DNA of 6,009 bases from Candidatus Eiseniibacteriota bacterium (GTDB lineage: Bacteria; JAFGKV01), in assembly GCA_025453925.1 (NCBI GenBank), contig JALOPK010000209.1, forward strand, positions 1 to 6,009, given 5' to 3'. This document shows, piece after piece, positions 1,031-6,009 of the stretch. Position numbers and translations under genes: made by a program. Numbering within the stretch: the first letter of the stretch is position 1; the number at the start of each line of letters is the position of its first letter. The notes under the pieces were generated by a model. That model saw only the letters and a list, made by a program, of their open reading frames with translations, ran no database searches and was not told the DNA's origin.

Positions 1031-1915
1031 CTACTTCGCCATGGGTTGGATGAGGGCGCTGCCGCTGAAGGTGTTGATCTCGAGATCCGCCCCGCCATCG
1101 CCAAGAGTGAGGGACGCCTCCTTGCCGGAGATCTTGGTCCCGGTCAGCTCGTTCACAACCTTCCCGCTGAACGTGGACATGCTGACGTCGGCGTCGGTAT
1201 CATCGGGAAGCTGGAGCGTGACGCTGCCGCTGAACGAGTCGAAGGAGTAGCGGCCTTCACGGCTGAGGCCGCCGGTGAAGCTGATACTACCCGATACCGA
1301 CTCGCATGATGCATTCGAGATCTCAGAGCCCGACACCTCGATGGAGCCGCTCACCGTCTCGGCGTCGACCTCCCCGGAGATGCCTTCCAAGCGTACGGCG
1401 CCGCTGACGGACTCGGCATCCACCCTCGCGAGTGCACCCTTGACAGTGACGTTTCCGCTTACCGATTCCACTTTCACATCCCGCGCGCGTCCCGTCAGGG
1501 TGATCGTGCCGCTGACGCTCTCGACATCCACCGAGCGCTCAACGGCGGCGACATCGATGTCGGCGCTGACCGTTTCGACACTCACGGTTACTCCGCGGGG
1601 GACACTGATCTGGAGATCGGCATCCCCATTGCGGTTCTTGAGGCCCTTCTTCAGCTTCACCTCAATCGTGGCCTTGTTGCCCGCGGCGGTGAAACCGAGA
1701 TCCTCAACGCCTTCACCAAGGGTGCCGACGATCTTGATCTCGTTCTTCTCCCACCCATTCACGCGGACGGAGCCCGCGACGTTCTCGATACTCACGGACC
1801 CGTCCGACCCAAAGGGCCTGGTGAGATTAACGGGCCGATCGGCAGCCCTGCTCGCCGTGGCGAGCAGGCTTGCGGTGAAGGCCATAGCTGCTACGAGGCT
1901 TAGACTGGGCCGCAT
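1031..1915 (-). CDS. Exported DUF4097 beta-strand-repeat protein
   Basis: A 294-residue protein with a signal peptide (residues 1-24 or 25: RPS, a hydrophobic core from about 5 to 20, cleavage near SRA/AD). The rest is mostly beta-strand, with the DUF4097 hallmark SVSG-type turns: ETVSA 114, ESVSG 132, 150 and 168, ETVSG 186, ESVSG 205, DSFSG 226, STFSG 247 and NTFSG 281. The spacing is exactly 18 residues for the first five and then 19, 21, 21 and 34, which predicts a regular right-handed beta-solenoid-like stack. No transmembrane segment, lipobox or catalytic motif is seen after the signal peptide, so it is probably periplasmic or surface-exposed. The biochemical role of the family is not established. 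Members often sit beside anti-sigma or PspC/LiaF-type envelope-stress genes, and here the gene begins 9 nt after an anti-sigma-like gene. The start is fixed by AGGAGG 5 nt upstream and by the signal peptide. Confidence 0.93.
   Translation of the reverse strand: MRPSLSLVAAMAFTASLLATASRAADRPVNLTRPFGSDGSVSIENVAGSVRVNGWEKNEIKIVGTLGEGVEDLGFTAAGNKATIEVKLKKGLKNRNGDADLQISVPRGVTVSVETVSADIDVAAVERSVDVESVSGTITLTGRARDVKVESVSGNVTVKGALARVDAESVSGAVRLEGISGEVDAETVSGSIEVSGSEISNASCESVSGSISFTGGLSREGRYSFDSFSGSVTLQLPDDTDADVSMSTFSGKVVNELTGTKISGKEASLTLGDGGADLEINTFSGSALIQPMAK
1061..1576 (-). repeat. Degenerate coding repeat, 18-residue (54-nt) unit
   Basis: Nine copies of the pentapeptide pattern [E/D/S/N]-[S/T]-[V/F]-S-[G/A] in the DUF4097 protein, the first five spaced exactly 54 nt apart. 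The last copies change V to F and lengthen the unit to 19-21 residues, then 34. At the DNA level the copies have diverged, so the period is held by the protein fold and not by recent tandem duplication. Confidence 0.85.
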
Positions 1916-1920
1916 TCCAT

Positions 1921-1926
1921 CCTCCT
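1921..1926 (-). promoter_or_regulatory. Shine-Dalgarno overlapping the upstream stop
   Basis: A consensus AGGAGG on the - strand, 5 nt before the ATG at 1915. The TAG stop of the anti-sigma-like gene (1927-1925) supplies its first AG, so ribosomes finishing that gene would sit on this site. This points to translational coupling of the two genes. Confidence 0.85.
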
Positions 1927-2560
1927 AACTGATGGGGTTGTTGGTGCCGGCGTCCAGTTCATTCAAGAGCCGCGCCGTTGTACGAACCAGAGATGCCTTT
2001 CGCTGATACTCCTGCCGGAGCAGGTGAACCAGCCGCAAATCAGAGGGATCTTCCCGGAGCGCCGCCAGAAGTTGATCGATGGCCGCATCGACAATCGCGA
2101 TATGCCGGGACATGGTGCCCCGAACTCCTGTGCGAGGGTCGAGGTTATCCTCCGTCACTGGGAAGACGTCGCTGGCAGGCGAGGATCCTTCACATGCGAT
2201 CTGTCTGACGGCCACGATGGGTGACTGGCTCCATGGAGCGACCAGCGTGAACAACACGCAGATCCCCACGCTGAATGCGCACGCCCATGCCGGGCGCAGT
2301 AGAACCCGCGTTGTCGGGCGAGATGTCACGCGGGGCCGTCGCTCCCCCGCCGCCATGCGTTGCTCAACTCGAGGCCATAGATCCCGCGCCGGCGCCACCG
2401 TTCGGGGCAGCGCCGATATCCGGTCTCGAAGCGCGCGCAGCCCCTCTGCTTCGCTTCGGCAAGCGGCGCAGTCCCGCAAATGGCGCGCAAGGCGGCGCCG
2501 CGTCTTCCGCGGGAGCGTGCCGTCGACGAAATCATCGAGCGGGTGGGGCTGGTGATGCAA
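1925..2560 (-). CDS. Zinc-finger (zf-HC2) anti-sigma-like membrane protein
   Basis: A 211-residue single-pass membrane protein. The N-terminal domain (about 1-50) has the zf-HC2/ZAS pattern: a DDFVDGTLP helix start at 9-17 and the zinc motif H27-x3-C31-x2-C34 (HLRDCAAC). In this family that domain binds and sequesters an ECF sigma factor in the cytoplasm. A basic stretch (71-90) precedes one hydrophobic segment (about 91-110), giving an N-in, C-out topology. The outer part (111-211) ends in a charged helical region (about 150-205). The start is TTG: the next in-frame ATG is residue 70 and would remove the zinc finger, and a ribosome binding site is placed correctly for the TTG. The gene overlaps the Shine-Dalgarno of the DUF4097 gene, so the pair is almost surely cotranscribed. 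No sigma-factor gene lies directly upstream; the CotH-type gene is there. The anti-sigma function is therefore inferred from the domain alone, and its partner must be encoded elsewhere. Confidence 0.85.
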   Translation of the reverse strand: MHHQPHPLDDFVDGTLPRKTRRRLARHLRDCAACRSEAEGLRALRDRISALPRTVAPARDLWPRVEQRMAAGERRPRVTSRPTTRVLLRPAWACAFSVGICVLFTLVAPWSQSPIVAVRQIACEGSSPASDVFPVTEDNLDPRTGVRGTMSRHIAIVDAAIDQLLAALREDPSDLRLVHLLRQEYQRKASLVRTTARLLNELDAGTNNPIS

Positions 2561-2609: not shown

Positions 2610-5600
2610 TCACCGGATAGGACGGTCGAGAGGAACGAAAGGTTGGAACGAAACCCGTGGAGATATCACGGCCAAACGTGAAGCGCGCCCTTGGGGCGCG
2701 TCCAATACTGCCACGTAGACCCCGGCCGGGAGATCCAGCGTCACCTCCATTGTGTGCCAGCCCACGCCCAGGACACCGCTCCAGGCCCGCGATGCGACGC
2801 GTCCGGCCAGATCGTACAGCGAAACTCCGACCATGCCGGCGTCGGGAATGCCGATTCTGATCCCAAGCCGTGTCTGCGCGGGATTGGGCCAGAGCGACTC
2901 GATGGTCGGGTGCCGCGGAACCGCTGAACCAGGCAGTGGGGCGGCCCCCAGCGCGGCATTGGGGCAGCCGGGGGTCGGGCTGACCGTGGTCCCCCAGGGC
3001 CCGTTGGCGTCAGGGAAGCGCCCACAGGAAACGTCGGTGGTCTGTCCGCCGAAGGTGAGCGTGTCGATGGGGACGAAAATGCCCTGAATCGAAGTGTACA
3101 ACCCGAGCTGTTCTCCCGCGGCGTCCAACTTGAATGGCGCATGCCATGGCCCTTGCGCGGGCTGATCATCCGCCCACACAAGGAGGAACCTTCCCGGCGC
3201 GAGGGTCAGACCCGGCGGCAGCGGCCATCGATCGGGATCGGCAAAGTCATCGGTGAGAAACAGCCCCTGCGTGCCAACGGTGTCATCCCCGCCAACGATG
3301 ATCTCCACCCAGTCATCGAACTCGCCCCACTCATCCGCAATGGTTGCGTCGTTGCTGGCCATGAACTCGTTGAGACGCATCTCGGGCGGGTCGAATCCCA
3401 CCACCCAGCCACCCGGGGAGGAGGCGGGGGGGAACACCGTGATGGCGCCGCCGGAGTCTTCGGCCCGCACGACGTAGTGTACCGTTGCACCCATGTCGAA
3501 GCCCGGAATGATCGCGCCGTAGATGGAATCGTTGGCAGCGGTGTCGCCGTGGCTCCCATCATCGAACATGGCCATGGGGGAATAGCCGGGGCCGCGGTCC
3601 ACCAGAAGGTCCACCCTCGCCAGATCGGCATCGGGATCGGAGACCAAGGCAAAGACCGCAACCGGCTGCTGGGCAGCCGGGTGGGGAGGCGTGTGGGTCA
3701 CGTTGCTCACCGTGGGAGGCATGCCGGTCGGTGACGGGTTATTAGTTCCCGGCGTCGCCTCTCCCGTGCGCCAGGTCGAGCCGCCGTCGGGTGAACGATA
3801 ATACGCCTGGTCCGCGCCGCAGGCCGGCACCGCCGCCGCGTCGACCACCATGCCGCCCGGCCGGTTGAGAACAATCTGTCCCCCTGACGCATCGAGCCGC
3901 CAACTACAGTGCAGCGAACCCTGGAGGGTCTCGCCGTCAAGCCAGAGCAGGAGATGCCGTCCAGGTCCGATGGCGGTGTCGGGGATCGTCCACGATGCGC
4001 TGAGGGACTGGAGACTCCAGCCGGCGATGCTCGTGGAGTCGGGGCTCATGTTCCAGAGTTCGACCCACGGATCGAACTCGCCGGATTCGTCCGCCAGGGT
4101 CGAGCCGTTGTCAGGTTGGACCTCGTTGAGGTAGACGTAGAGCGACTCGGGGGGAGCGAACCATGCAAGTTGATCGAGAAGGAAGGACCGCCGCATGGCG
4201 ACGAAACTCTTCAGGTCGTCCACCGATCCCTCGAACAGCACGGGATTCTCCCGGCCCAGCTTGAGCACATCACGCACCGCATCCTGGGCGATAAGATCGT
4301 GCAGGGAGTCGATGCGCCCGGCCATGGATGACACGGCGAACTGATTCTCCAACAAGTGTTTCAGCCGGCGGCAGTAGGCGGCCCGAAAGGCGGGAACCGA
4401 CAGCACTCGGTCCACCAGCATGTTCGCGCCGCCGATGCATTGCGGGCTGCCGGTGGTGCCCACGTCGATGGGTGGGCTGCACGTGACGTCGAACTCGAAA
4501 GGGAAGCCCAGGCCGAAACTCAGGTCGAGGTCCCAGGGCAGGATTTCCCACACATCCCGAACGAGGTCGTGGATCAGGTAGTAGTTGCGCTCCGTGAAGT
4601 CGTTGTTGGCGGTAGCCACGATGACCGAGTAGTAGTTCAGATAGGCGGCGACATCAAGTGTGCGCAGGAGAAACGCCGGGAGCGCGTCGCGTCCGGTGAG
4701 ATTGATCCCTTCGACGAACGTGATCAGGTCATCGTGGCCAAGATCTTCGTTGGTCTCCTTGTCGTAGCACCGTTCGTAGTCGGCGGTGCCGGCGAGCAGG
4801 CCAAGATTGCCGTTGCACTTGTAGATGCTCGCGGTGGAATCCCTGCCGGTCCGGCGCAGTAAGCGGACGTCGGGCTGCTCGACCCGATAGTAGACGCCCG
4901 CGAACCGATCGTTGATCTCCAGGTGCGCGTGCGACGCCGCGGGGGGCCGCACGCCCATGTCCGCGAACAAATCAAAGCCGAGGCAGGCGTGCAGGAGCGA
5001 CCAGTCGGCGTAGTCCCCGTTCAGGTTGATCACGTCAGCGCCCTCGAAGAACGCGCCGTCCTCGAGCCGGATCTTGTATGACTTCTTCGTGAAGCGCCGT
5101 GCCACATTGCCCCGATACCGAAGTCCGACAGGGTCGTAGGTCACTCCCCCGGCAGTAAGACTGGCCGGCACATAGGTGTTTGTCCACGGGTTGTCCTGCA
5201 GGATGGCCAGATCCTCAGGCTCCACGTGAATCTCATACACCGGCAGCAACGATTCCTCCGGGGCCATGGGCTCGGCGACGGCCCAAGGCGTCGAGTCGCC
5301 GGCATTGCCGAAGACATCCACTGCACGCAACCCATAGGAGGACGCGGTCGAGATACCGTAGTCGAGGAGCAACGGAGTAGGAACCGGCCGTTGCGTGATG
5401 CAGGTCTGGGCGGTTCCGTCGTCCCGGTAGACCAGTATGCCCGCCGCGTCATTGTCGGTCGGCAGGTCCCAGGTGAGCATGGCCGAACGATAGCCGTCGC
5501 GCACCACGGGGTCGGCGGGTGTCGCCGGCGCGATCGTATCGAACACGGCCGAGACCAGCTCAATCGCGGACAGAATGGTGGGGCGGTAGAGGCTCTCCAG

Positions 5601-6009
5601 GTCAAGATTGAACTGGCCGTCCTCCACCGTGACGGCGCGTCGCAGCCTGACGGCATATGCATGATCCGCGATGGCGAACACATCTACCGTGTCGAGGACA
5701 GCTTCCTCGACCACGATGCGCATGACCCGCAGGGCCGGGCCGAACTTCTCCAGTTCACAGAAATGCAGGCTCAGGACATACGCCCCATCGGGAACATCCG
5801 CTGTAAACCCCTCGAGGTCGACGCGCCACGTGCGGTAGAGGTCGGGCAGGTCGGTGCCGCCGATGGGATCCCATGCGGGAGGGGGTGTCCCTCCTCCGAT
5901 GAACCCCGCGCCCCCTGGGGCGTATGTCGCATCCGCCATGAACTGCACCCCCTCCGGTGACAGAATGGCCGGGCCGCCCGCGTTCATATGAAGTTCGTAC
6001 GCGGCAGCG
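2610..6009 (-). CDS. Secreted CotH-kinase protein with malectin and lamin-tail domains, 5' partial
   Basis: Residues are numbered from the ATG at 5987, which gives 1125 residues. The frame stays open for 7 more codons (AAAYELH) to the window edge and these fit the first malectin strand, so the true start and signal peptide lie outside. Domains in order: malectin/CBM57-like carbohydrate-binding (1-146); Fn3-like (150-240); CotH kinase (about 250-610) with YRGN 291-294, KKSYKIRL 301-308, VEQPD 369-373, ERNYY 466-470 and PWDLDLSFG 484-492, whose D486 and D488 are the likely metal-binding pair; lamin-tail domain 1 (about 618-750); an Ig-like spacer with FDDGSHGDTAANDSIYGA (808-825); lamin-tail domain 2 (about 870-1010); and a FlgD-like/type IX sorting-like module (about 1028-1108; PNP 1034-1036, YDLAGR 1058-1063, PAGVYVAVL 1087-1095) followed by a 17-residue tail. 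CotH proteins are atypical protein kinases known from spore coats; activity and targets here are unknown. Twelve cysteines and the binding modules fit an extracellular protein acting on glycans or surface proteins. It is probably first in the - strand gene series. Confidence 0.92.
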   Translation of the reverse strand, partial: AAAYELHMNAGGPAILSPEGVQFMADATYAPGGAGFIGGGTPPPAWDPIGGTDLPDLYRTWRVDLEGFTADVPDGAYVLSLHFCELEKFGPALRVMRIVVEEAVLDTVDVFAIADHAYAVRLRRAVTVEDGQFNLDLESLYRPTILSAIELVSAVFDTIAPATPADPVVRDGYRSAMLTWDLPTDNDAAGILVYRDDGTAQTCITQRPVPTPLLLDYGISTASSYGLRAVDVFGNAGDSTPWAVAEPMAPEESLLPVYEIHVEPEDLAILQDNPWTNTYVPASLTAGGVTYDPVGLRYRGNVARRFTKKSYKIRLEDGAFFEGADVINLNGDYADWSLLHACLGFDLFADMGVRPPAASHAHLEINDRFAGVYYRVEQPDVRLLRRTGRDSTASIYKCNGNLGLLAGTADYERCYDKETNEDLGHDDLITFVEGINLTGRDALPAFLLRTLDVAAYLNYYSVIVATANNDFTERNYYLIHDLVRDVWEILPWDLDLSFGLGFPFEFDVTCSPPIDVGTTGSPQCIGGANMLVDRVLSVPAFRAAYCRRLKHLLENQFAVSSMAGRIDSLHDLIAQDAVRDVLKLGRENPVLFEGSVDDLKSFVAMRRSFLLDQLAWFAPPESLYVYLNEVQPDNGSTLADESGEFDPWVELWNMSPDSTSIAGWSLQSLSASWTIPDTAIGPGRHLLLWLDGETLQGSLHCSWRLDASGGQIVLNRPGGMVVDAAAVPACGADQAYYRSPDGGSTWRTGEATPGTNNPSPTGMPPTVSNVTHTPPHPAAQQPVAVFALVSDPDADLARVDLLVDRGPGYSPMAMFDDGSHGDTAANDSIYGAIIPGFDMGATVHYVVRAEDSGGAITVFPPASSPGGWVVGFDPPEMRLNEFMASNDATIADEWGEFDDWVEIIVGGDDTVGTQGLFLTDDFADPDRWPLPPGLTLAPGRFLLVWADDQPAQGPWHAPFKLDAAGEQLGLYTSIQGIFVPIDTLTFGGQTTDVSCGRFPDANGPWGTTVSPTPGCPNAALGAAPLPGSAVPRHPTIESLWPNPAQTRLGIRIGIPDAGMVGVSLYDLAGRVASRAWSGVLGVGWHTMEVTLDLPAGVYVAVLDAPQGRASRLAVISPRVSFQPFVPLDRPIR
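2632..2653. repeat. 9-bp direct repeat GGAACGAAA, two copies
   Basis: GGAACGAAA occurs at 2632-2640 and 2645-2653, 13 bp apart, inside the last codons of the CotH-type gene, where it encodes the VSFQPFVP part of the C-terminal tail on the - strand. The 13-bp step is not a multiple of three, so the two copies are read in different frames. This argues against a peptide repeat and leaves a DNA-level site or chance. GGAAC resembles the -35 of ECF-sigma promoters on the + strand, but I see no matching -10 and no gene it would serve. Confidence 0.4.

Follow-up and report, generated by a model that had tools for sequence, protein, structure and literature searches.

The window analyzed here, the entire 6,009-base contig C229 of source genome G000, carries a gene for a protein that joins a CotH-family kinase domain to a malectin domain and two lamin tail domains (LTDs). 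We give roughly even chances to the reading that this protein is an exported, surface-associated atypical kinase of the CotH family, secreted by the type IX secretion system (T9SS), localized by its malectin domain, and phosphorylating a co-located protein. The protein would enter the periplasm by means of a Sec signal peptide and be passed, through its C-terminal sorting domain, to the T9SS for export and attachment. The malectin domain, perhaps together with the LTDs, would then anchor the kinase at a glycan or glycoprotein that belongs either to the envelope of the cell itself or to the substrate on which it grows. There the CotH domain would phosphorylate a co-located protein, much as spore coat proteins are phosphorylated by CotH in B. 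subtilis. Within this proposal, ligand binding by malectin, the substrate, and the phosphate donor are parts that we infer. The features of the protein are as follows, with residue 1 as the first complete codon of the contig.

2610..6008, minus strand: malectin-CotH-LTD-LTD protein; frame open to the contig end; orthologs P0002 and P0003
5580..5993, minus strand: malectin domain, residues 6-143; Pfam PF11721, 44.5 bits; ten-domain profile finds 2jwp, E 5e-15
5259..5555, minus strand: Fn3-like linker, residues 152-250; no Pfam match in the window; a relative scores 18.3 bits for fn3
4179..5123, minus strand: CotH kinase domain, residues 296-610; Pfam PF08757, 186.9 bits; 5jd9, E 5e-40
5082..5087, minus strand: K308-K309 of KKSYK; among malectin-CotH domains, K308 is K in 13/13 and K309 is K/R in 13/13
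4599..4601, minus strand: D470, counterpart of B. subtilis D228 by alignment and spacing; D in 50/54 CotH domains
4530..4532, minus strand: D493 (PWD motif), counterpart of B. subtilis D251 by alignment and spacing; D in 54/54 CotH domains
3837..4136, minus strand: lamin tail domain 1, residues 625-724; Pfam PF00932
3504..3572, minus strand: choice_anch_X motif in an Ig-like spacer, residues 813-835; NF041940, 29.2 bits, cut-off 25
2955..3383, minus strand: lamin tail domain 2, residues ~876-1018; second LTD stretch, 22.7 bits when scanned alone
2679..2891, minus strand: T9SS type A sorting-like C-terminal domain, residues 1040-1110; TIGR04183, 18.5 bits, and 25.2 in P0002

The kinase assignment is carried by the CotH domain, which matches the Pfam model (cut-off 23.8 bits) over profile positions 1-322 of 322 and aligns along its whole length with B. 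cereus CotH (5jd9). The D228Q and D251A variants of B. subtilis CotH are reported to be inactive (PMC7821199). We equate these residues with D470 of an NxD motif and D493 of the PWD motif, on the basis of the statements on D228 and D251 in that paper, the alignment, and the spacing, which is 23 residues in both proteins. D470, D493, K308, and E377 are all kept in each of the 13 malectin-CotH domains, which come from two lineages. The motifs that a previous sequence-only reading of this DNA listed (KKSYKI, VEQPD, and PWDLDLSFG) are likewise present. Its proposed mutant sites, D486 and D488, correspond to our D493 and D495: the first is conserved, and the second is variable (of the 54 CotH domains, 24 have D there and 23 have N), while D470, which would be D463 in its numbering, was missed. 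These data support a catalytic core that looks intact; that the protein is an active kinase we infer solely from the conserved residues.

The reading frame spans 1,132 codons and remains open up to the contig end, where its 5′ end is cut; from base composition, the probability of a random open frame this long is approximately 7e-14. One scan of genome contigs yielded two orthologs, one Metabacillus CotH, and nothing else. Both orthologs are complete, come from metagenome-assembled genomes of Candidatus Fermentibacteria, and have the same layout as the window protein: P0002 in G001 (L032:9171-12617) is 61% identical, and the ortholog in G002 (L033:2696-6106) is 49% identical. Each begins with a short, basic, hydrophobic leader that, judged by eye, resembles a signal peptide and ends right before YELH. 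The window protein should thus be short of only about 17 residues of its signal peptide. Because YELH directly follows the leader in the complete orthologs, translation does not truly begin at the ATG at 5987. These leaders also support the earlier claim that the protein is secreted, and similar ones are found in several relatives beyond the two orthologs.

Homology of the N-terminal domain to malectin is firmly indicated by profile comparisons. The malectin model (PF11721/CBM57) has a cut-off of 23 bits, and the domains of the orthologs score 35.7 and 50.4 bits. The profile built from ten malectin domains of malectin-CotH proteins retrieves other malectin entries besides Xenopus malectin 2jwp, as well as C-terminal domains of bacterial GH2 proteins (E 1e-15), with FERONIA lower in the list. 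The assignment of residues 1 to 146 to malectin in the sequence-only reading therefore stands. The domain order that it proposed holds in its main parts, with malectin, CotH, the two LTDs, and the spacer all above their cut-offs (the LTD model, PF00932, at 50.5 bits across two stretches against 34.3). Two elements of that order fared less well. The sorting tail is weak, and the Fn3-like segment (approximately residues 152 to 250) lacks Pfam support, as the Pfam scan gave no match there in either the window protein or the G002 ortholog; fn3 reaches 18.3 bits over this segment in a relative from genome G120, under the cut-off of 25.

For the malectin-CotH proteins of Fermentibacterota, export through a T9SS is the interpretation that fits best, and it is supported because the genome encodes SprA homologs and a PorU-like C25 peptidase. 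Each of the three Fermentibacterota genomes (G000, G001, and G002) has SprA homologs that score above the cut-off. The sorting model TIGR04183, with a cut-off of 23 bits, has 56 matches in the source genome; the G001 ortholog passes, and the G002 ortholog scores 17.0 bits. Por_Secre_tail gives a weak Pfam match in the window protein, and the sorting-like domain appears all-beta in a poor full-length AlphaFold2 (AF2) model, with a block predicted local distance difference test (pLDDT) score of approximately 57 to 80. As an observation in its own right, a T9SS is probably present in the phylum Fermentibacterota, given SprA in three genomes and the many sorting tails and PorU-like C25 peptidase proteins of G000; our literature search turned up no article that links Fermentibacter(ia) to a secretion system.

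Several results weigh against the proposed surface kinase. The sorting-like domain of the window protein itself falls under the TIGR04183 cut-off, and the PorU-like C25 peptidase of the source genome gives partial NF033707 matches of 217 and 77 bits, under the cut-off of 420. Neither the full protein (mean pLDDT, 36.6; four sequences) nor the malectin domain (pLDDT, 33.8; three sequences) was modeled by AF2 well enough for fold comparison. No Ser-rich repeat protein or other substrate was seen adjoining the gene, and no genome-wide search for one was made. The phosphate donor is unexplained, since scant ATP is expected outside the cytoplasm. Finally, Xenopus malectin contacts diglucose through Y67, Y89, Y116, F117, and D186 (PMC7783096). 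Three of these could be placed: at the positions of Y89, Y116, and F117, the window protein has V, E, and K, in a numbering deduced from the neighboring Y and F of the printed alignment. Diglucose binding is therefore not to be assumed, and the earlier suggestion that malectin directs the kinase to glycans finds no support in these residues. Poplar malectin domains keep only two of the five contacts (PMC7783096), so the loss of contacts concerns the ligand and not the fold.

The shortage of extracellular ATP also favors the foremost rival, a noncatalytic surface adhesin or scaffold in which malectin, CotH, and the LTDs all serve as binding modules and CotH is a pseudokinase or a structural domain. 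Precedents point the same way: cellulosomal CotH-dockerin proteins have been speculated to bind the plant cell wall (PMC8665504) or to aid assembly (PMC12484212), and the CotH proteins of Mucorales are ligands of host receptors (PMC9973265). However, a purely structural role needs none of D470, D493, K308, and E377, which are retained in all 13 malectin-CotH domains from both lineages, and we regard this rival as possible but unlikely.

To assess how widely malectin and CotH are fused, we surveyed a sample of 290 genomes, judging co-occurrence in one protein by coordinates. Malectin was matched in 22 genomes and CotH in 42. The architecture search called for by the sequence-only reading recovered the fusion in five of the 290 genomes, namely the three Fermentibacterota genomes and, in one other lineage, G120 and G257; its absence is uncertain in a few genomes (e.g., G146 and G283) in which only part of the CotH candidates were scored. 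The sole malectin match in each of the three Fermentibacterota genomes is the one fused to CotH. All eight Pfam malectin matches in G120 (E <= 0.001) precede CotH on the same strand and contig, although the one in C251 is under the Pfam cut-off and the malectin-CotH pair in C223 is divided between two frames. A ninth malectin-CotH protein in G120 (L107) was detected only with the purpose-built malectin profile, and the second malectin of G257 (C832) is located at a contig end. With at least nine malectin-CotH paralogs and further CotH proteins (L077-L083, L102-L109), G120 displays a large lineage-specific expansion.

The G120 and G257 proteins that were read to their end share the order of signal peptide, malectin, linker, CotH, LTD, spacer, and LTD with the window protein through the second LTD. 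They stop at or shortly after this domain, without a recognized sorting tail, and T9SS export is not the best reading for them. A single clade of the 13 malectin-CotH fusions is rejected on the CotH tree (approximately unbiased [AU] test, p 1.1e-5). Long branches in the tree and possible domain losses leave room for either repeated fusion or loss. Our literature search found no paper describing a malectin-CotH protein.

Two further readings give malectin a more direct part, and both seem to us improbable. The fusions may constitute a family of extracellular kinases, expanded in one lineage to nine paralogs or more, in which malectin brings CotH to a glycan of the envelope or the environment and either the glycan or an attached protein is phosphorylated from an extracellular nucleotide or another donor; we would not bet on this scenario. 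The wider kinase group around CotH includes sugar kinases, and the fusion of malectin to CotH would suit an enzyme that phosphorylates the glycan instead of a protein, as the secreted sugar kinases Fam20B and POMK do, with malectin binding that same glycan. Yet the biochemically shown CotH substrates in the literature that we found are proteins only, and this idea earns equally little of our confidence. Phosphorylation of co-exported partners in the cytoplasm before export, with a structural role alone outside, would presumably solve the donor problem, but we consider it very improbable because Sec export threads unfolded protein, so that a folded, active kinase is not expected in the cytoplasm, and because the orthologs carry leaders.

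The spore coat kinase CotH of B. subtilis and B. cereus (5jd9, 5jda) resembles the window domain in its full-length alignment and in the D228/D251 counterparts and their spacing. It differs in being a single-domain protein that acts on CotB and CotG in spore coat assembly, whereas CotH in the window is built into a larger secreted protein with several domains. To our knowledge, the lineage of the window is not known to sporulate. The sequence-only reading was right that CotH and LTDs are a known pairing, as Clostridium thermocellum Cthe_0239 combines LTD-LTD-Fn3-CotH with a dockerin (PMC6083626). Cthe_0239 and CseP (PMC6083626) are, like the window protein, secreted CotH proteins with lamin tail domains, and theirs are tied to a glycan-degrading assembly; they attach by a dockerin and have no malectin listed, in contrast to the malectin and T9SS-type tail found here. 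The dockerin-CotH proteins of anaerobic fungi, in the portions of the reports available to us (PMC8665504, PMC10978972), are likewise extracellular, with a glycan-directed setting and many paralogs; they differ in being eukaryotic and dockerin bearing, and those portions do not mention a malectin-CotH fusion. One paper (PMC12484212) calls the role of dockerin-CotH proteins unclear, structural or regulatory. The malectin side resembles malectin itself (2jwp, 2k46; E 5e-15) and the malectin-type C-terminal domains of bacterial GH2 proteins (8dhl, 5uj6; E 1e-15), and it is set apart by the lost diglucose contacts that could be placed and by its partner, a kinase fold and not a glycosidase. The nearest known proteins are CotH-LTD proteins and cellulosomal CotH, of which the window protein would be a T9SS-type counterpart.

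Two other genes of the window lie beside the CotH gene.

1925-2560, minus strand: zf-HC2 anti-sigma-type protein
1031-1915, minus strand: toastrack DUF4097/LiaG-like protein

The order of CotH, zf-HC2 anti-sigma-type, and toastrack genes is common to the window and G001, and so is their relative orientation. Beside the zf-HC2/toastrack pair, we noticed no sigma factor gene, in the course of work that included no search aimed at one. A methyltransferase gene comes next after toastrack in the window, and one additional gene intervenes in G001; this gene (L032:14246-16087), absent from the window, encodes a GINT1_N-type glycosyltransferase-associated domain. The CotH gene of G001 is preceded by a gene for a lytic transglycosylase, whose end lies 29 bases away. 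The source genome also encodes a second CotH-LTD-LTD protein, without malectin, on contig C339 (L034:687-3266 onward), with its C-terminal sorting tail in another frame. The G001 ortholog of this protein (L035, 840 amino acids) is intact, and the frame break in C339 may reflect an assembly frameshift or a decayed gene.

Secreted CotH-LTD proteins occur in many environmental bacteria, and our literature search found no tested function for them. The malectin fusions occur in two separate lineages, and all copies examined retain the catalytic aspartates; they are candidates for asking whether bacteria phosphorylate proteins or glycans outside the cell, and from which donor.
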